The position numbers and the translations under genes were made by a program. Positions 46,756-57,428 of a stretch of 64,000 nt of DNA are shown one piece after another. Position 1 is the stretch's first letter. Each line of letters begins with the position of its first letter. The notes beneath the pieces were generated by a model. It was not told the origin of the DNA and did not search any database. It worked only from the letters and a program-made list of their open reading frames with translations. Source of the stretch: Halovivax limisalsi (GTDB taxonomy: Archaea > Halobacteriota > Halobacteria > Halobacteriales > Natrialbaceae); NCBI RefSeq assembly GCF_023093535.1, contig NZ_CP095757.1:1612001-1676000 (forward strand), given 5' to 3'.

Positions 46756-48726
46756 TCAGTCGTCGACCGCCTCGGTCTCCTCCCCGTCCGACTCCCCCGT
46801 CGTCTCGTTTGCTTCCTCCCCGTCCGACTCCGATTCGTCGTCCGATCCCGTTCCGTCGTCGCCGTTCTCGGCCCCCTTTTCGCCGCTCTCCCCGTCATCT
46901 TCGGTTTCAGCGTCTCCGTCATCGCCGTCATCGTCGTCCATCCCGACGCCGTCGGGGTGCGGTTCGATCGACTCGCCCTCGCCGTCGGGCACGATGCGCC
47001 AGACCTCGCCGGTTTCGCCGTCGGTGTAGCGCGCGGTCGTCAGCACGTAGAGTTCGTCGTCGTGGTCGCGGCCGAACGCGAGGACGAACCGGTTGATCCG
47101 GTCGTTTTCCGCGTCCGAGACCGACAGTTCCTGGATCTCCCAGAGGTCGTCCCGGCTGCGATCGGCCGTCGCCTCGTACTCCCGGACTGGCGAGGCGAAC
47201 AGCGATCCGTCGGGCGTCCCGAAGGAGCTGCTCCAGTCGCCGTAGACGTACGTCTCTTGTAGCTCGGTCACGGAATCGCCCTCGTAGACGTAGCCGCCGG
47301 TGATCGAGATCCCGAGCGTCTCGCCCTCGACGAGGTGCGGGTACTGGATCACCGGATCGATGAGGGGTTCGCCGCCGCGGACGTCGTCCGGCGTCGCACT
47401 CGGACACTCCTCGGGCGGCTCGCCCGGGTTCTCCGTGCTGAAGCACTCGATTCCCTCTTTGACGTTCCAGCCGTAGTTGCCGCCGTTCTCGACGATGTCG
47501 ACCTCCTCGAAGAGATTCTGGCCGACGTCGGCGACGAAGAATCGCCCTTCGCCGTCGAACGACGCCCGCCACGGGTTGCGAAGGCCCCACGCGAAGTACT
47601 CGTCCATCCCCTCGTCGCTGTCGACCAACGGATTGTCGTCGGGGATGCCGTACGGGCGACCGTCGTCACCCTCGGCGTCGACGTCGATCCGGAGGATGCC
47701 GCCGAGGAGGTTCTCCGTCGTGTTCTGGCCGTTGCCGCCCTCGTTCGCGTCGTACCAGTCCTCGACGTGGCCGAGTCCGACGTCGTTGGCGTTGCCGCCG
47801 TCGCCGAACGGGACGTAGAGGTAGTCGTCCGGGCCGAAGAGCACGGCGCCGGCGTTGTGGTTGAACTGGGGCTCCGGCACCTCGAGCAGGATCTCTTCGG
47901 AGTCGGGGTCGCCGGTCTCGTGGTCGTCGCTCGCGGTCGAAAACTCGGCGAGAATGGCGGTGTGGTCGTAGTCCTCCGGCGTGTCGTCGGTCGGCGGCGC
48001 GCTGTAGCGGACGAAAAAGCGGCCGTTCTCCCGGAAGTCCGGGTGGAACGCGAGTCCGAGTAGCCCCCGCTCGTCGAACTCGCCGGTCCCGCCGCTGACC
48101 TCGACGATCCGGTCGGAGAGATCGAGGAACGGCTCAGCCCTGAGCTGCATCTCCCCCGAGTCCGTTCCGCCCTGACTGGCGCCGTTCCCGGCACCGTCAC
48201 CCGCTCCGTCGGATTCGTTGTCGTCGGCAACTCCGCCGGTCTCGTTCCCGGCTGCGCCCGCGCCGGTGGATTCGTTTCCGTCCTCGGTGACGTTGCCTTC
48301 GTCCGTTCCGTCGCCGGTTTCCGCGTCGGTTCCAGCCTCGCCGTCCGCGGCATCTCCGTCCGCCGTCGCGGGTTCGATCACCCGGATCTGGCCGAGCTGG
48401 TCGACGACGTAGAACCGATCCTCCTGTCCGGGGGCGACTTCGAACCCCACGGGTGCGGTGAACCCGCCCGCGACGCGTTCGAGTCCGATGGTCGGCCCCT
48501 CGCCGACGATCTCGTCCCGGCTCGGTCCCGTCGACTCGTCTTCGCCGTTCGTTTCGGTCCCGCCCGACTCGTTCTCGTCTTGCGCGATCGCCGGACCGGT
48601 CAGGCTCACCGCCGCGCCGGTCGCCGCCGCGGCCTTCATGAACACGCGTCGCGACGAATCCGTCCGCGAGCGTTGTCCGTCGCGCCCGCACGGTGGCCCG
48701 TCGGGATCGAATGGTGGATTGGTCAT
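46756..48726 (-). CDS. Tat-secreted PQQ-dependent sugar dehydrogenase-like protein (GSDH family)
   Basis: This 656-residue protein has a twin-arginine signal (SSRRVFMKAAAATGAAVSL, residues 24-42, cleaved near AIA). The mature part has a beta-propeller: YVVDQLGQIRVIE, FHPDFRENGRFFVRYSAPP, FNHNAGAVLFGPDDYLYVPF, GDGGNANDVG, YFAWGLRNPWRASFDGEGRF, VADVGQNLFEEVDIVENGGN, typical of soluble glucose/sorbosone dehydrogenases. Two acidic Asp/Glu/Gly low-complexity stretches occur, one near residues 130-185 within the fold and one at the C-terminus (about 600-656), likely disordered. It is predicted to oxidise sugars outside the cell with PQQ or similar. Cofactor use is inferred. Confidence 0.85.
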   Translation of the reverse strand: MTNPPFDPDGPPCGRDGQRSRTDSSRRVFMKAAAATGAAVSLTGPAIAQDENESGGTETNGEDESTGPSRDEIVGEGPTIGLERVAGGFTAPVGFEVAPGQEDRFYVVDQLGQIRVIEPATADGDAADGEAGTDAETGDGTDEGNVTEDGNESTGAGAAGNETGGVADDNESDGAGDGAGNGASQGGTDSGEMQLRAEPFLDLSDRIVEVSGGTGEFDERGLLGLAFHPDFRENGRFFVRYSAPPTDDTPEDYDHTAILAEFSTASDDHETGDPDSEEILLEVPEPQFNHNAGAVLFGPDDYLYVPFGDGGNANDVGLGHVEDWYDANEGGNGQNTTENLLGGILRIDVDAEGDDGRPYGIPDDNPLVDSDEGMDEYFAWGLRNPWRASFDGEGRFFVADVGQNLFEEVDIVENGGNYGWNVKEGIECFSTENPGEPPEECPSATPDDVRGGEPLIDPVIQYPHLVEGETLGISITGGYVYEGDSVTELQETYVYGDWSSSFGTPDGSLFASPVREYEATADRSRDDLWEIQELSVSDAENDRINRFVLAFGRDHDDELYVLTTARYTDGETGEVWRIVPDGEGESIEPHPDGVGMDDDDGDDGDAETEDDGESGEKGAENGDDGTGSDDESESDGEEANETTGESDGEETEAVDD

Positions 48727-49238: not shown

Positions 49239-51311
49239 ATGACCGATCCCGTCCTCTCGACCGGGGCGCTGGTCGTCTTCGCGCTGATCGCGGTCACGCT
49301 GGTCCTGTTCGTCACGGAGGTCATTCCGACCGACGCGACCGCGATCGGCGTGCTGGTCTCGCTGGCCGTCCTGGAGCCGCTGACAGGCGTCTCGGCGGGC
49401 GAGGCCATCTCCGGGTTCGCCAGCACGGCGACGATCACCATCGTCGCGATGTACATGCTTAGCGCGGGCATCCAGCGGACGGGACTCGTCCAGCGACTGG
49501 GCCTCTCGCTCGCGCGCTTCGCCCGCGGCAGCGAGACGCGGGCGCTCGCGGCCACGATCGCGACCACCGGCCCGCTCGCGGGCTTCGTCAACAACACGCC
49601 GATCGTCGCGATCTTCATCCCGATGATCTCCGAACTCGCGGCGAAGACGGGAATCTCGGCCTCGAAGCTCTTACTGCCGCTCTCCTACGCGGCCATCCTC
49701 GGCGGCACGCTGACGCTCATCGGGACGTCGACGAACCTGCTCGCGAGCGAGTTCGCCGTGGAGCTCGTCGGCCGCGACGCGATCGGATTGTTCGAGTTCA
49801 GCGCGCTCGGGGTCGTGATCCTCGCGGTCGGGCTCGCCTACCTCATGACCGTCGGCCGCTGGCTGACGCCGGAGCGCGCCCCCGTCGAGGGCGACCTCGT
49901 CGACGAGTTCGACCTCGAGGACCACCTCTCACAGGTCCGGGTGCGACCGGACGCCGACGCGGTCGGCTCGACCGTCGGCGACCTCGAATCGCGATCGGAC
50001 GCGAAGATCCGAATCCTCCAGTTGCGACGCGACGACGGTCGAGCGCTGGCGTACGACGAGGACGGGACTGGCGACCACTCGACGGCGACGGCGGCGGCCG
50101 GCGAGTCGCCGGTCGAGAGCGCCGCGACGCCGTCCGAGGAGGAAGCCGTCGCCACTGCGGATCCGCCGGCGGCCCCCTCGGACCACCCGGCGGGCACGAC
50201 CGGCGCGGCCGAATCCGTCACCGACTCGTCGCCGGATTCGGCGGACGGGGTGGCCGCCGGGGACGCCTCGTTCGCGTCGGTCAGCCCGGACACGCGGATC
50301 GAGGCGGACGACGTCCTGACCGTTCACGGGACGTTGCAGGCGGTCAATCGCTTCGTCGGCGATCAGGGACTCTCGCAACTGGTCCGCCGGTCCGTCACTG
50401 ACGAAACGTTCGAAGCCGCCGCGAGCGACGACGTGCTCGCGAAGGCCGTCGTCCCGCCGGAGTCGTCCTTCGCCGGTGAGAAACTGGCCGACTCGCACCT
50501 CCGGGAGGTCTACCGGACGACGGTGCTGGCGATCCGTCGCGACGGCGAGTTGCTTCGCACCGACCTCGGGGAGACGCGACTCGAGCCCGGCGATCTCCTG
50601 TTGCTCCAGACCGTCCCCGAGACCGTCGAGTACTTCGGCGACGGGACGGACCTGGTCGTCGTCGACGAGGACGCGCTCGATCGACTGCTCGCGGACGAGC
50701 CGGCCGAACGCGCGCCGCTCTCGCCGAAGACCCCGATCGCGCTGGGGATCATGGCTGGCGTGATCGGGGCGGCCGCGCTCGGCGTCCTCCCGATCGTGAT
50801 CTCGGCGCTGGCCGGCGTCTTCTGCATGGTCCTCACGGGCTGTCTCTCGACGAGCGACGCCTACGACGCGGTCTCGTGGAACGTGGTGTTCCTCCTCGCG
50901 GGCGTCCTGCCGCTGGGGATCGCGCTCGAGGCGACGGGCGGATCGGCGGTCATCGCGGGCGCGCTGGGGGCGACGGACCCGTACCTCTCGCACGCGGGTA
51001 TCCTGTTCCTGTGTTACCTCGTGACCGGGGTGCTCGCGAACGTGATCACGCCCGTCGCGACGATCGTGTTGATGACGCCGATCGCCGTCGATACCGCGAC
51101 GAGCCTCGGCGCCGCGCCGTTTTCGTTCCTGCTCGCGGTGATGTTCGCCGCGGCGACCTCGTTCTCGACGCCGGTCGGCTACCAGACCAACCTCATGGTC
51201 TACGGGCCGGGCCGGTACGAGTTCACCGACTTCCTCCGGGTCGGCGGCCCGCTGCAACTGCTGCTCTCCGTGGTCACGTCGATCGGGATCGTGGCAATCT
51301 GGGGCGTCTGA
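49239..51311 (+). CDS. SLC13/DASS-family transporter with RCK_C domains
   Basis: This 690-residue membrane protein has two transport halves. The N-terminal half (residues 1-210) carries FVNNTPIVAIFIPMISELAA and GGTLTLIGTSTNLLASE, the conserved SNT/TNT ion- and substrate-binding regions of divalent anion:sodium symporters. Two TrkA-C (RCK_C) modules lie about 225-350 and 390-480 (VVPPESSFAGEKLADSHLRE). The C-terminal half (about 500-690) holds FLLAGVLPLGIALEATGG and ATSFSTPVGYQTNLMVYG. A low-complexity Ala/Ser/Glu/Pro insert splits the first RCK_C module near 280-345. Transported ion may be sulfate, phosphate or dicarboxylate. Confidence 0.82.
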   Translation: MTDPVLSTGALVVFALIAVTLVLFVTEVIPTDATAIGVLVSLAVLEPLTGVSAGEAISGFASTATITIVAMYMLSAGIQRTGLVQRLGLSLARFARGSETRALAATIATTGPLAGFVNNTPIVAIFIPMISELAAKTGISASKLLLPLSYAAILGGTLTLIGTSTNLLASEFAVELVGRDAIGLFEFSALGVVILAVGLAYLMTVGRWLTPERAPVEGDLVDEFDLEDHLSQVRVRPDADAVGSTVGDLESRSDAKIRILQLRRDDGRALAYDEDGTGDHSTATAAAGESPVESAATPSEEEAVATADPPAAPSDHPAGTTGAAESVTDSSPDSADGVAAGDASFASVSPDTRIEADDVLTVHGTLQAVNRFVGDQGLSQLVRRSVTDETFEAAASDDVLAKAVVPPESSFAGEKLADSHLREVYRTTVLAIRRDGELLRTDLGETRLEPGDLLLLQTVPETVEYFGDGTDLVVVDEDALDRLLADEPAERAPLSPKTPIALGIMAGVIGAAALGVLPIVISALAGVFCMVLTGCLSTSDAYDAVSWNVVFLLAGVLPLGIALEATGGSAVIAGALGATDPYLSHAGILFLCYLVTGVLANVITPVATIVLMTPIAVDTATSLGAAPFSFLLAVMFAAATSFSTPVGYQTNLMVYGPGRYEFTDFLRVGGPLQLLLSVVTSIGIVAIWGV

Positions 51312-51442: not shown

Positions 51443-51589
51443 ATGTCGGAGCGTCCGGCGGACACACCACCGCTGATGCAACGGCTGTACGACAGAATCT
51501 GGCTCATCGCGCTCGTGGCCGTCCTCGTCTGGGCGACCACGTACGTGCTGTGGGGATACGTGGACATTCTCGCGATTCCGGCGGGGTGA
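51443..51589 (+). CDS. Small membrane subunit of the heme-copper oxidase-type complex (48 aa)
   Basis: This 48-residue protein has a charged N-terminus (MSERPADTPPLMQRLYDR) and one hydrophobic segment (about residues 20-42, WLIALVAVLVWATTYVLWGYV). It is the first gene of the operon, with a TATA box at leaderless distance and only four bases before the subunit II gene. A single-helix subunit (IIa/CbaD type) is common in B-type oxidases. The role is inferred from position. Confidence 0.7.
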   Translation: MSERPADTPPLMQRLYDRIWLIALVAVLVWATTYVLWGYVDILAIPAG

Positions 51590-51593
51590 TCCG

Positions 51594-52139
51594 ATGACGT
51601 CACCGCTCGAATCCCCGGACGGAAACTGGTGGAACCAACCGATCAACCGCCGCGAGGGTATCTGGCTGGGACTGGCCGGGATCTGGTCGGTCGGCATCTT
51701 CGCCTGGATGAGCGGCTTCACCCGCTTCGGCGAGCAGAACCCGATCGGCCCGACCTACGAGGTCGAGACCGAGGAGTACCTGCAGACGGTTCAGGACTAC
51801 CAGGACGAGGCCGAAGACACCGACGAGGGACTCGTTCCGCCCGGCACCGACGTCTACATCGCGGGAATGCGCTTCAGCTGGCTGGGAACGCCGGTCGTCC
51901 TCGAGACCGGGACGGAGTACGACTTCCACCTCAGCTCGATCGACGTCCAGCACGGCTTCTCGCTCCGGCCGGAGCACGCGCTGAGCAAGCAGATGAACTT
52001 CCAGGTGTTGCCGGGCTACGAGTGGGTCCTGCCGATGGAGTTCGACGAACCCGGCGAGTACCACATCATCTGCAACGAGTTCTGCGGTGAGGGCCACCGA
52101 ACGATGCACGGTCGGATCGTCGTTCAGGAGGGCGAGTGA
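51594..52139 (+). CDS. Heme-copper oxidase-type subunit II with CuA site
   Basis: This 181-residue membrane-anchored cupredoxin has a short cytoplasmic N-terminus, one transmembrane helix (about residues 22-43) and an outer cupredoxin domain. CuA ligands are His120 (DVQHGF), Cys160, Glu162, Cys164, His168 and Met171 (CNEFCGEGHRTM). Such a two-copper centre accepts electrons from halocyanin or cytochrome c and passes them to subunit I. Length resembles the short ba3-type subunit II. The complete CuA set argues for a redox-active enzyme. Confidence 0.9.
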   Translation: MTSPLESPDGNWWNQPINRREGIWLGLAGIWSVGIFAWMSGFTRFGEQNPIGPTYEVETEEYLQTVQDYQDEAEDTDEGLVPPGTDVYIAGMRFSWLGTPVVLETGTEYDFHLSSIDVQHGFSLRPEHALSKQMNFQVLPGYEWVLPMEFDEPGEYHIICNEFCGEGHRTMHGRIVVQEGE

Positions 52140-52140
52140 G

Positions 52141-53904
52141 ATGGCCCACAGGTACGACGTCCTCGGACTCTTCGACAACGACTACGACGAGGAGGGCTTT
52201 CGCCGGTGTTCGGTGACGGGCCTGGACATCCATCACACCGCGGAAAACATGGTGAAGCTGTTCGGCCTGACGGCCGTCGTCGCGATGATCGTCGGCGGCA
52301 TCTTCGCCTTCTTCGTCGCGATGACGCGCTGGGAACTCGTCGGCCTGCTCGGGCCCGAGAGCTACTACAAGCACCTCTCGATGCACGCCTGGAACCTGCT
52401 CATCTTCTGGATGGTCTTCCTGGAGATCGCCATCCTGTACGTGGGCGGGCCGATGGTGCTCGGCCGGCGGTTGTCGTGGTCGCCAGTCGCCCTGCTCGGC
52501 TGGGTGGTGATGGTCGTCGGGGCGGTGCTGGTCAACGCCGGCATCTGGCTGACCTCGCTGCCGGACGAAGCGCCGCTGTTGACGGCGTACGTGCCGCTGA
52601 CCGCCCACACCTGGTTCTACGTCGGCGCCGTCACGTTCATCCTCGGGGCGATCGTCGCCGCGCTCCCCTTCTTCGTGACCATCTGGAAGGAAAAGCGCGG
52701 CGAGCCCTGGAAGACGCTGCCGCTCGTGACCTTCGGCGCGTTCGCGACGTCGATCATCGCCTTCGAGGCGCTGCTGGGCGGTCTCATCACGTTCGCCGTC
52801 ACCCTGCTCTGGCGGGTCGAGCTCATCGCGTGGATGGACGCCGCGTGGTACCGCCACATGTACTGGACCATCGGACACAGCACCCAGCAGATCAACCTCG
52901 CGGCGATGGTGACCGTCTGGTACTTCCTCACCCACGTCGTCGGCGGCGCGGAGGTCGTCAGCGAGAAGGTCTCGCGCACCGCCTTCATCCTCTACATCCT
53001 CTTCATCAACCTCGGGGCCGCCCACCACATCCTGTCCGATCCGGTCGTCTCGACCGGCTGGCGCGTCTGGAACGCCTCCTACGCGCTGTACGGCGCGGCC
53101 TTCGCCAGCATGATTCACGCCTTCGCGATCCCGGCGGGGATCGAGGCGGGCCGACGCAAGCGCGGGCAGGGGCGCGGTCTCTTCGGCTGGCTCACCTCGG
53201 CGCCGTGGACGAATCCGGTCTTCTCCGCGACGATCTTCAGCATCATCCTCTTCGGCTTCGTCGGCGGCATCACCGGCGTCGTCATGGGCCAGCTCCAGGT
53301 CAACATGACCTGGCACAACACGTTCGCGACGGTCGGACACTTCCACGCGACGGTGGCGCTCGGGACGACCCTCGCGTTCATGGGACTGATCTACTTCGTC
53401 GTCCGGACGATGTTCATGCGCCGGCTCGCGCTCGGCCGGCTCGCGACCCTCCAGCCGTACCTCTACGCCGGCGGGATGGGCATCGCCACCATGATGATGC
53501 TGTACGCCGGCCTCCTCTACGGCGTGCCCCGGCGCACGGTCGAGGTGGTGCGGAACATTCCGGGCGCGAACTTCGACCTCGCGGCCGCGGCGCCGCTCAT
53601 GACCATCTTCGGGATCTTCGCCCTGGTTGCGATCGTCGCTGGGGCCGCGTTCGTCCTGATCGCCGTCGTCTCGATCCTCTTCGGCGAGCGCGTCGTCGAC
53701 GGCCCGGACGGCACCGGCCTGGTCCTCGAAGGCGGGCCGCGACTCGCCGACGGCGGCGGCCCGGTGGTCGACGAGGACGATCCGGTCCACGCCTACGAGA
53801 TGCGGGGCACGTTCGTCATCGTGCTGATCTTCTTCGTCATGTTCGTCGTGGCGTACGCGGCGAACTGGTACCTGCTGTCGGAACTGTGGTCCGTGGGGCT
53901 CTGA
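52141..53904 (+). CDS. Heme-copper oxidase-type subunit I lacking the active-site tyrosine (candidate NO reductase)
   Basis: This 587-residue, about 13-helix protein is of B-type (ba3-like) organisation. Heme ligands are His82 (LSMHAWN) and the His400/His402 pair (VGHFHATV); CuB ligands are His246 (YWTIGHSTQQ) and His295/His296 (GAAHHILSD). In oxygen-reducing B-type enzymes the sequence after the first CuB histidine is HPxVY, with Tyr four residues on; here it is H-S-T-Q-Q, so the tyrosine position is Gln250. Loss of that tyrosine is described for NO-reducing family members. Hence oxygen reduction is doubtful and NO reduction is the better guess. Annotation pipelines would call this cytochrome oxidase subunit I. 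Confidence 0.85.
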   Translation: MAHRYDVLGLFDNDYDEEGFRRCSVTGLDIHHTAENMVKLFGLTAVVAMIVGGIFAFFVAMTRWELVGLLGPESYYKHLSMHAWNLLIFWMVFLEIAILYVGGPMVLGRRLSWSPVALLGWVVMVVGAVLVNAGIWLTSLPDEAPLLTAYVPLTAHTWFYVGAVTFILGAIVAALPFFVTIWKEKRGEPWKTLPLVTFGAFATSIIAFEALLGGLITFAVTLLWRVELIAWMDAAWYRHMYWTIGHSTQQINLAAMVTVWYFLTHVVGGAEVVSEKVSRTAFILYILFINLGAAHHILSDPVVSTGWRVWNASYALYGAAFASMIHAFAIPAGIEAGRRKRGQGRGLFGWLTSAPWTNPVFSATIFSIILFGFVGGITGVVMGQLQVNMTWHNTFATVGHFHATVALGTTLAFMGLIYFVVRTMFMRRLALGRLATLQPYLYAGGMGIATMMMLYAGLLYGVPRRTVEVVRNIPGANFDLAAAAPLMTIFGIFALVAIVAGAAFVLIAVVSILFGERVVDGPDGTGLVLEGGPRLADGGGPVVDEDDPVHAYEMRGTFVIVLIFFVMFVVAYAANWYLLSELWSVGL

Positions 53905-53916
53905 CCCGCTCTACTC

Positions 53917-54645
53917 ATGGCTGAAGACGACGTCCCTCCGTCGGAGCCGGCACCGCACCCTGTCGCGTGGATCCGCCGGACCCTCCGATCCGGCTGGAAC
54001 GACTTCCGGAGCGTCTACTACGCGAACACGCTCATCTGGCGCGTCTTCAAGAGCGGCGCGCTGATCTTTCTCGGGCTGTTCTGCTGGGCGGGCGCGAACC
54101 TCCTGCTGTCCTACCGGCCCGACTGGGCGATACTGTACTACGTGCTGGCCTACGGCTTTCTGCTGCTGTTCTGGGGCCCGTTCACCCACTTCGTCGTCGT
54201 CCCATTCGTGATCCGGATCCGGCGAGGCGGCCCCGATAGCCGGATCGAGCGGTTCCTCTCGCGTCACGGCTCGAAGGCGAACCTGTCGATCTTCTTCGCC
54301 CTCGTCCTGATTCTCGGGACGTACCCGATCGGACCCATGGTCTTCGAGTTCCAGCTCCCCTCCGGCGGCGGTGGCGAGAGCGTGACCGCGCAACTGCAGT
54401 GTACGAAATCGGCCGAGACCGTCCACTGTCACCTCTCCGACTCGCGCGGGATCGACAGCGTCGTCGTCACCTCCGGCGGCGAGCGCGTCGAGCGAGTCGC
54501 GGATCCCCCCTTCGAGTTCAACCTCGAGATCGACGAGTTAGAGGCGGTGCGAGGGCAAGAACAGTTCCGGGTCGAACTCAAGGATCGTAACGGCGAGACG
54601 CTTCGGACGTTCCTCCGCATCGTCGATACGATTCCGGGTGGGTAG
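53917..54645 (+). CDS. Membrane protein of the oxidase operon with outer domain
   Basis: This 242-residue protein follows subunit I by 12 bases on the same strand. It has about four hydrophobic segments between residues 47 and 145 (SGALIFLGLFCWAGANLLL, ILYYVLAYGFLLLFWGPF, FVVVPFVIRI, LSIFFALVLILGTYPIGPM). These precede a C-terminal outer domain of about 90 residues rich in beta-strands and holding two cysteines (LQCTKSAETVHCHL). I know no family. The position suggests an accessory subunit or assembly factor of the oxidase-like complex; the cysteine pair could be structural or bind copper. Confidence 0.7.
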   Translation: MAEDDVPPSEPAPHPVAWIRRTLRSGWNDFRSVYYANTLIWRVFKSGALIFLGLFCWAGANLLLSYRPDWAILYYVLAYGFLLLFWGPFTHFVVVPFVIRIRRGGPDSRIERFLSRHGSKANLSIFFALVLILGTYPIGPMVFEFQLPSGGGGESVTAQLQCTKSAETVHCHLSDSRGIDSVVVTSGGERVERVADPPFEFNLEIDELEAVRGQEQFRVELKDRNGETLRTFLRIVDTIPGG

Positions 54646-54696: not shown

Positions 54697-57243
54697 TTAG
54701 TCTTCGTCCGGGGCCAGCAGCCGGCGTCGCGAGTTCGTCACGACGAGGATGCTACTGCCCGCCATCGCGAGCGCGGCGAACAGCGGGTTCAGGACGCTTG
54801 CGACCGCGAGCGGCAGTGCGACCGCGTTGTAACACAGGGCCCAGGCGACGTTCTCGCGAATCCGTCGCCGGGTCGCCCGCGCGAGGTCGAACACGGCCGG
54901 GACGTCGGTCAGGCGGCCGTCGAGGATCGCGACATCGGCGGCCTCGCCGGCGCGGGCCGTCCCGCCGAACGCGATGCCGACGTCCGCGGCCGCGAGCGCC
55001 GGCGCGTCGTTCGTCCCGTCGCCGACCATCGCGACCGTCCCCGCGGCGCCGAGCCGGCGGATCGTCGCCGTCTTGCCGTCCGGCGGCACGCCCGCGAACA
55101 CCCGATCGACGGCCGGGTGGTCCCGAAACCGGGCGGCGGCCGACTCGCCGTCGCCCGAGAGGACGATCACCGACTGCTCGTCGAACGCCGCGAGCGCATC
55201 CTCCCACTCGGTGCGGTCGCGGTCGCCGACGATCGCAACGGCGGCCGCCCGGTCGCCCCGACCGATCACCGCGGGTACGTTCCCCGACGCCCGCGCGTCC
55301 GCGACGGCGCTCTCGAGTCGATCCGGGAGCGGGCCGCAGCGTCGCTCGACGAGGGCCGGCGTGCCGACGACGACCCGCTCCCCGTCGACCTCCCCGCTGA
55401 CACCCTCACCGGGATGCCGTTCGAAGTTCGCCACATCGCTGGCGGGTGCGTCGACGGCCGTCGGTTCGGCAGGCGTGTCGGCCGCCGGCGATTCGGCGCT
55501 TCCGGTACGCTCCTCGACACGCTCGACGTCGCCGCCGTCGGTCACCCTCGCTTCGCCGCGGGCGCCCGTCTCGCCGGCGGCCGTTTCACGCGCGTGATCC
55601 ACGATCGCTTCACCGACGGGATGTGACGATCGCCGTTCGACCGCGGCCGCCGGTGCCAGCGCGTCCCCGTCGCCGACCACTCGCTGGACTCGCATCTCAC
55701 CGGTCGTGAGCGTCCCCGTTTTGTCGAAGACGATCGTGTCGACGGCCGGCGCGGCCTCGAACAGGGTGCCGTTGGTGACGACGATGCCGCGCTCGAGCGC
55801 GTCGCGGAGGCCGCCGGCGATGGCGAGCGGGGTCGCCAGCCCCATCGCGCAGGGACAGGCCGCGACCAGCACCGTCAATCCGGCGAGCAGCGCCGCCGCG
55901 GTCCCGTTGCCGACGGCCAGGTGCCAGCCGGCGACGCCGGCACCGAGCAGGAGGACCAGCGGGACGAAGACGGTCGCGAGTCGGTCGGCGAATCGCTGGA
56001 CGCCGGGGCGCGTGCTCTGGACGGACCAGAGCAACGACGTGATGCGATCGAGCGTGCTCTCGGCCGCATCGTCGACGCGGACGACGAGCGCGTCGTCGGT
56101 GACGACGCTCCCGCCGATGACGGTGTCGCCCGGCCGTTTCGTCACCGGTAGCGACTCGCCCGTCAGGACGGCCTCGTCGACGGCCGCGACGCCCTCGCGA
56201 ACGGTACCGTCGATCGGGACGCGTTCGCCCGGCCGAACGACGACGTCGTCGCCCGGTTCGATCGCGTCGACCGGGATCGTCTCCGTCGACCCATCCTCGG
56301 TCAGCCGGGTCGCCTCGGTCACCCGCGTCGTGATGAGGTCCGACAGTCGGCCCGTCGCCCGCCGTTTCAGCGTCCCCTCGTAGTAGCCGCCGGCGGTGAC
56401 GACGAGGACGATGGCGATCGAGACGTCGTAGTAGAGGTGCGTTCCGCCGGAGAGAAGAGTCACCGTACTGTAGCCGGACGCGGCGAGGATCGCCACCGAG
56501 AGCAGGAGGTCCATGTTCGGCCGGCGCGTCCGCAGACTGACGTACCCACCGCGAAGGATCGGCCACCCGGAGTAGCAGACGACGATAGTGGTGAGGGCCG
56601 CGACCATCACCATCGGGAAGTACAGGCCGAACGCGGCCGTCCGATCCGCCGCGAGGATCCCCGACTCGAGACCGACGTAGCTCGGATAGAGGAAGAAGAT
56701 GTACCACGGCATGACGAGCATCGCGAGGAACACCCCGGCGACCAGCCGTCCGAGTTCGTCGTCCCGACGCGGTGAGGATGCCGACGCGGACTCGTCGCGG
56801 TGGCGGGCGGTGTACCCGTAGCCGCTCACGGCCGCCGGAAGGTCCGCGGGATCGATTCGCTCGGGATCGTAGCTGACCCGGGCCGTATCCGTGGCGTAGC
56901 TCGCCTCGACGGTCCCGATTCCGTCCTCAGATTCGCCCCGGAGCGAGACGAACGCCTCGCACGTCGAACAGTGCATCCCGTCGACCTCGAGGAACGCCCG
57001 GGCCAGTTCGTCGTCGGGGGCCTCCTGATCCGCGGTCCTCGCGCCATCGGGACCCGCGGTCTCCGAGTCCTCGGCGCCCGCCGCTGCTCGCGCCTCGAGG
57101 TCGTCCCGACCCACGTCCTCGACGTCCTCGAGCGATCGTGCGACGTCGAGGCACCCGCGACAGCAGAAGGCCCCGCGAACGTCGCTCGCCGTGTGAGCCG
57201 AATCAGGCGTCGGAAGTCCGCACAGGGTACACTCCGCTTCCAT
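54697..57243 (-). CDS. Heavy-metal P-type ATPase, FixI/CcoI-like copper exporter
   Basis: This 848-residue P1B ATPase has a cysteine-rich N-terminus (CTLCGLPTP and AFCCRGCLDV, residues 6-31) and an HMA domain with DGMHCSTCEAF (Cys92, Cys95). The CPC motif is at 463-465 in AACPCAMGLATP and the phospho-acceptor is Asp507 in DKTGTLTTG; HP and TGDGxND-type segments (SSHPVGEA, MVGDGTNDAPAL) follow. The FCCxGC N-terminus is characteristic of FixI/CcoI pumps that feed copper to heme-copper oxidases. The gene is convergent with the oxidase operon, with 51 bases between the stops. Its ATG at 57243 is preferred to one 51 bases upstream. Copper specificity is inferred from the CPC motif. Confidence 0.88.
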   Translation of the reverse strand: MEAECTLCGLPTPDSAHTASDVRGAFCCRGCLDVARSLEDVEDVGRDDLEARAAAGAEDSETAGPDGARTADQEAPDDELARAFLEVDGMHCSTCEAFVSLRGESEDGIGTVEASYATDTARVSYDPERIDPADLPAAVSGYGYTARHRDESASASSPRRDDELGRLVAGVFLAMLVMPWYIFFLYPSYVGLESGILAADRTAAFGLYFPMVMVAALTTIVVCYSGWPILRGGYVSLRTRRPNMDLLLSVAILAASGYSTVTLLSGGTHLYYDVSIAIVLVVTAGGYYEGTLKRRATGRLSDLITTRVTEATRLTEDGSTETIPVDAIEPGDDVVVRPGERVPIDGTVREGVAAVDEAVLTGESLPVTKRPGDTVIGGSVVTDDALVVRVDDAAESTLDRITSLLWSVQSTRPGVQRFADRLATVFVPLVLLLGAGVAGWHLAVGNGTAAALLAGLTVLVAACPCAMGLATPLAIAGGLRDALERGIVVTNGTLFEAAPAVDTIVFDKTGTLTTGEMRVQRVVGDGDALAPAAAVERRSSHPVGEAIVDHARETAAGETGARGEARVTDGGDVERVEERTGSAESPAADTPAEPTAVDAPASDVANFERHPGEGVSGEVDGERVVVGTPALVERRCGPLPDRLESAVADARASGNVPAVIGRGDRAAAVAIVGDRDRTEWEDALAAFDEQSVIVLSGDGESAAARFRDHPAVDRVFAGVPPDGKTATIRRLGAAGTVAMVGDGTNDAPALAAADVGIAFGGTARAGEAADVAILDGRLTDVPAVFDLARATRRRIRENVAWALCYNAVALPLAVASVLNPLFAALAMAGSSILVVTNSRRRLLAPDED

Positions 57244-57428
57244 GGTCTCTGGCGGCGATACTACGTCACGTGACTCGTCCCACGCCGAAACCATTACTGG
57301 TTCGGGTCAATTCACTGTCACCCGCGGGGACGAACTGGTGGCCGCGATCCGGGATTCGTCGGAGCGCAGTCGATCGTGCGGCGGGTCGGCCAGCGACTGG
57401 ATGCGGTCGACCGGCGCGACGCCGGCGG

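Follow-up and report, generated by a model that had tools for sequence, protein, structure and literature searches.

The eNOR gene cluster

The DNA analyzed here (the window) is a 64,000-nucleotide stretch of the Halovivax limisalsi genome, to which positions refer unless a locus is named. It carries a cluster of four genes (51443-54645), all of which are open (Table 1). The largest has no internal stop upon translation and encodes a 587-aa heme-copper oxidase subunit I, which matches Pfam COX1 but scores far under the cut-off of NCBIfam CtaD. Its nearest solved proteins in a PDB search are the Thermus thermophilus ba3 oxidases, of the B-type; its identity to B-type oxidases is below 30%. Alignment with ba3 and other B-type oxidases recovers all six histidines reported by the first-pass annotation of this DNA: the low-spin heme ligands His82/His402, the high-spin heme ligand His400, and the CuB ligands His246/His295/His296. 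The HPxVY motif of B-type oxidases, however, corresponds to HSTQQ (His246 to Gln250) in subunit I. Gln250, encoded by CAG at 52888-52890, thus takes position +4 from His246, where B-type oxygen reductases have the His-cross-linked tyrosine of helix VI (Tyr237 in ba3), and this tyrosine is absent. The gene boundaries, the GHSTQQ motif and the residue numbering given in the first-pass annotation all agree with the translation and the alignment.

Table 1. Features of the eNOR cluster and the adjacent ATPase gene in the window.
Feature	Position	Strand	Basis
Putative small single-helix subunit, 48 aa, first cluster gene	51443..51589	+	ATG..TGA, 4 bases ahead of subunit II
Subunit II, CuA cupredoxin domain plus a single membrane helix at the N-terminus	51594..52139	+	PDB match, ligand alignment
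Predicted eNOR subunit I, heme-copper catalytic subunit	52141..53904	+	Pfam COX1 182 bits; alignment; diagnostic columns; tree
eNOR-linked orphan membrane protein, 242 aa	53917..54645	+	Genome distribution; model pLDDT 85
Copper-type P1B ATPase, HMA domain	54697..57294	-	Pfam E1-E2_ATPase, HMA; NCBIfam ATPase-IB1_Cu over cut-off

Subunit II matches the CuA subunit of T. thermophilus ba3 oxidase in the PDB (E = 2e-16) and is of the same kind. Its CuA ligands, aligned across loci, are complete (H120, C160, E162, C164, H168 and M171), as had been claimed for the gene next door to subunit I. A single-helix small subunit appears to be conserved from archaea to bacteria: homologues of the 48-aa ORF lie at the same place in those haloarchaeal loci whose upstream DNA is covered, and ORFs of 41-60 aa with a similar pattern lie upstream of subunit II in four bacterial loci (L035-L037 and L045). 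In its position we liken the 48-aa protein to IIa, the small subunit of ba3 oxidase. A homologue of the P1B ATPase is found beside eNOR in most relatives, and the window's ATPase probably supplies copper for CuA/CuB assembly.

Just upstream of the cluster (49239-51311) lies a gene for a CitMHS citrate/anion-transporter-like protein with an inserted TrkA_C domain, which was not found beside eNOR in relatives. Further upstream, on the reverse strand (46756-48726), is a gene for a large, secreted-looking protein with a twin-Arg-like start and a very acidic repetitive tail, judged by eye only to be glucose/sorbosone-dehydrogenase-like.

Diagnostic residues and phylogeny of subunit I

We compared subunit I with 17 haloarchaeal loci (63-73% identity, including Halovivax asiaticus JCM 14624 and a Natronomonas strain), with a second copy in the same genome, and with three bacterial proteins from Defluviimonas, Thermomicrobium and Thermus (about 40% identity). 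Glutamine occupies the Gln250 column in all 22 of these proteins, whereas all eight B-type oxidases, two of which are encoded by the window's own genome, have tyrosine. Gln250 can therefore be attributed neither to chance nor to sequencing error. The two sets are also completely split at Q249, N252, A255, Y285, H326 and other columns, and Glu95 is invariant in the eNOR clade in a column unlike that of the B-type oxidases. Gln249, Asn252, Tyr285, Glu95 and His326, which the first-pass annotation did not mention, are thus as diagnostic as Gln250.

Phylogeny was among the checks proposed in the first-pass annotation. A maximum-likelihood tree was built with qNOR and the B-type oxidases included. 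Subunit I and its 21 Gln-bearing relatives, among them the Natronomonas, Thermomicrobium, Thermus and Defluviimonas proteins, form one group (support 99/98), and the Tyr-bearing B-type oxidases form a separate one (97/100). The position of qNOR in this tree was disregarded because its branch is very long.

Two plasmid-borne eNORs of Thermus thermophilus (L037, 11983-13668; L045, 2483-4165) have GHFK rather than GHFH, so that a lysine stands where the low-spin heme would have its second histidine ligand. Plasmid B-type-like oxidases with an LHAIVYF motif were seen in Janthinobacterium and Mesorhizobium, and the latter adjoins an NnrS gene although its tyrosine is kept.

Assignment to the eNOR family

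The eNOR family was predicted in 2008 by Hemp and Gennis, who are followed in a later survey (PMC8756737). It is recognized by glutamine at the tyrosine position together with a cupredoxin subunit II encoded immediately upstream; the survey notes such genes in Natronomonas and elsewhere in the Halobacteria, and adds that they frequently go under the wrong name of cytochrome c oxidase (PMC8756737). In PMC11388526, which cites Murali et al. 2024, the family is listed as biochemically characterized on the basis of a Rhodothermus enzyme, and the eNOR of Ardenticatena shares an operon with NirK (PMC4653789). With eNOR, the family of Hemp & Gennis (2008) and Murali et al. (2024) that was expanded in PMC8756737, the Halovivax system has in common the COX1-type fold with six histidines, the glutamine for tyrosine and a gene for CuA subunit II right before that of subunit I. 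B-type ancestry, linkage to nir genes and occurrence in Halobacteria are shared as well (PMC8756737), and subunit I groups with the Gln-bearing bacterial and haloarchaeal proteins, apart from the B-type oxidases. We therefore regard the cluster as very probably encoding an eNOR, a CuA-bearing NO reductase from the B-type branch. This assignment draws on the motif and on the bacterial relatives, in a comparison that does not include the assayed Rhodothermus marinus enzyme.

The first-pass annotation offered two readings, a CuA-type NO reductase misannotated as a terminal oxidase or a novel enzyme. Motif, tree and genome context support the former. The latter fails, as does that of a novel oxidase, because Gln250 defines eNOR in the literature, Halobacteria included. 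No homologue that shares the GHSTQQ motif and reduces O2 was found. Subunit I is an otherwise ordinary eNOR, and what is new here is modest: how strictly eNOR goes with NirK in haloarchaea, a small subunit that is conserved, and an orphan protein of the membrane.

Other members of the superfamily fit less well. The bNOR/CuANOR of Bacillus azotoformans and sNOR are likewise CuA or cupredoxin NO reductases of the B-type branch, but their active-site residue is Asn (PMC8756737, Table A4), and Gln250 rules out both. It also rules out cNOR and qNOR, in which Glu is expected, along with FeB instead of CuB; the qNOR of the same genome indeed has Glu in the aligned column. That qNOR (NorZ) presumably catalyzes the same reaction as eNOR, but it belongs to another branch of the superfamily, is without a CuA subunit and is a longer single chain than subunit I. 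A B-type oxygen reductase is ruled out by Gln250 and by the place of subunit I outside the Tyr clade.

Association of eNOR with NirK in haloarchaea

The window's genome, a single 3.89-Mb contig, encodes seven COX1-type proteins: two A-type oxidases, two Tyr-bearing B-type oxidases, one qNOR and two eNORs. A search for nitrite reductase elsewhere in the genome, also suggested in the first-pass annotation, found NirK over the model cut-off. NosZ is full-length, yet under its model's cut-off, and no match to NarG was found in the genome. With NirK, the NO reductases and NosZ, the equipment spans nitrite to N2. The second eNOR operon (L005, 2570064-2571845) has GHGTQQ and is 64% identical to the window copy; this genome is the only one with two copies among the 25 sampled eNOR genomes. 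NirK is 47 kb from the second copy and about 860 kb from the window copy, so that the latter, in a genome with qNOR, could be redundant.

eNOR was found in 25 of 116 haloarchaeal genomes. NirK is present in all 25 of them and in 36 of the 91 genomes without eNOR (P = 5.6e-9, Fisher's exact test, a value that overstates independence because the genomes are related). In five genera (g2, g6, g8, g27 and g31), the species without eNOR are also without NirK, whereas two others (g15 and g35) include species that have NirK but no eNOR. NirK lies no more than about 6 kb from eNOR in 9 of 17 loci and within about 10 kb in many eNOR genomes; in a genus mate of the window's organism the distance is 4.8 kb. 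Among bacteria, the relative on a Thermus plasmid has nirS and an Rrf2 regulator nearby.

A survey of haloarchaea gives qNor as their NO reductase (PMC8400030). Seven of the 116 genomes have NirK and eNOR and no qNOR match, which is at odds with that survey. Since eNORs are automatically annotated as terminal oxidases, the N2O potential of hypersaline habitats is undercounted.

Proposed mechanism and proton path

The ligand set, the conservation of glutamine, the clade, the operon and the NirK association were observed directly in this study; what is predicted, by analogy with published studies of the family, is that the enzyme reduces NO and takes up protons along a K-channel-like path. Halocyanin is the probable soluble carrier that would feed electrons into CuA of subunit II. 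Next in line would be the low-spin heme (ligands His82/His402), followed by the site made up of CuB (His246, His295 and His296) and the high-spin heme (His400). There two NO molecules would be joined and reduced (2 NO + 2 e- + 2 H+ -> N2O + H2O). Such two-electron chemistry would need no tyrosyl radical, which could explain the replacement of tyrosine by Gln250.

We assume that the K-path of ba3 oxidase includes Tyr237, Tyr244, Tyr248, Ser309 and Thr312. In the alignment, Tyr248 and Ser309 are kept in subunit I as Tyr261 and Ser323, and Tyr237, Tyr244 and Thr312 correspond to Gln250, Val257 and His326. His326, like Glu95, is both invariant within the eNOR clade and specific to it. An AlphaFold model of subunit I, built from 18 sequences, has a pLDDT of 62.5, with residues 290-322 and 380-400 below 50. 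It is usable for the overall ba3-like fold only, ba3 being also the best fold match in the PDB. Given this low confidence, we claim no geometry for the binuclear center, that of Tyr285 included.

Alternative readings of the locus

Subunit I might still be an O2 reductase, either without a cross-linked tyrosine or with one supplied by another helix. Its B-type ancestry and its electron entry through CuA are oxidase-like, and a candidate residue exists: Tyr285 of helix VII, on the same helix as the His295/His296 pair, is present in all 22 eNOR-clade proteins and in none of the eight B-type oxidases. In C-type cbb3 oxidases the active-site tyrosine comes from helix VII, 6 residues before the HH pair. 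Tyr285, however, is 10 residues before it and would lie about one turn too deep to bond His246; it could in principle be a substitute tyrosine, but it is poorly placed and the spacing does not support this role. Furthermore, the strict association with NirK, together with the operons and neighborhoods containing NirK or NirS, fits NO rather than O2, for which four Tyr-bearing heme-copper oxidases are available in the genome. We consider O2 reduction very unlikely. Slightly less credible still is that a duplication or transfer left behind a degenerate or inactive paralogue. The genome's two eNOR copies, which share 64% identity, would allow for it, yet ligands and diagnostic residues are intact, the four genes have no stops, and subunit I shares 73-74% identity with its genus relatives without a long branch.

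A different question, which concerns role within the eNOR assignment, is whether the enzyme chiefly detoxifies NO under micro-oxic conditions instead of respiring it to conserve energy. Detoxification would fit the genome's three NO reductases (qNOR and two eNORs), its lack of a NarG match and the absence of NirK near the window copy. The link to NirK is nevertheless stricter for eNOR (25 of 25 genomes) than for qNOR, as 11 of 58 qNOR genomes are without NirK, and this points to denitrification and not to defense against outside NO. A chiefly detoxifying eNOR is a minority possibility, though one to be taken seriously.

An orphan membrane protein linked to haloarchaeal eNOR

The last gene of the cluster encodes a 242-aa membrane protein with no match in Pfam or NCBIfam. 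It is present in 24 of the 25 eNOR genomes and in only one of the 91 haloarchaeal genomes without eNOR. The sole eNOR genome without it (G034) is an assembly of 120 contigs, in which the eNOR match is truncated at residue 532. This may be where a contig stops, and the 242-aa gene may then just be missing from the assembly. The protein distinguishes the window cluster from the bacterial eNOR loci (L035-L037 and L045), beside which, by annotation, it was not seen; a collection of 72,556 plasmids gave no match either. Its model (pLDDT 85) shows three long helices in the membrane and, on the outer side, an Ig/FnIII-like domain in which Cys162 and Cys171 are invariant. In a fold search only the outer domain was matched, to FnIII/Ig-like modules; searching the PDB by profile gave no credible match.

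We lean towards the view that haloarchaeal eNORs contain or depend on this protein as a subunit or assembly factor specific to their lineage. If so, the strictly linked protein, which neither Pfam nor NCBIfam covers, would be a dedicated and testable new part of a CuA-type NO reductase complex. The copy in the one genome without eNOR (G036, which is also without NirK) is decayed, a fragment with a stop (L046, 4035-4373). No eNOR remnant was found in the 7 kb around this fragment, and the genus mates of G036 carry both eNOR and NirK.
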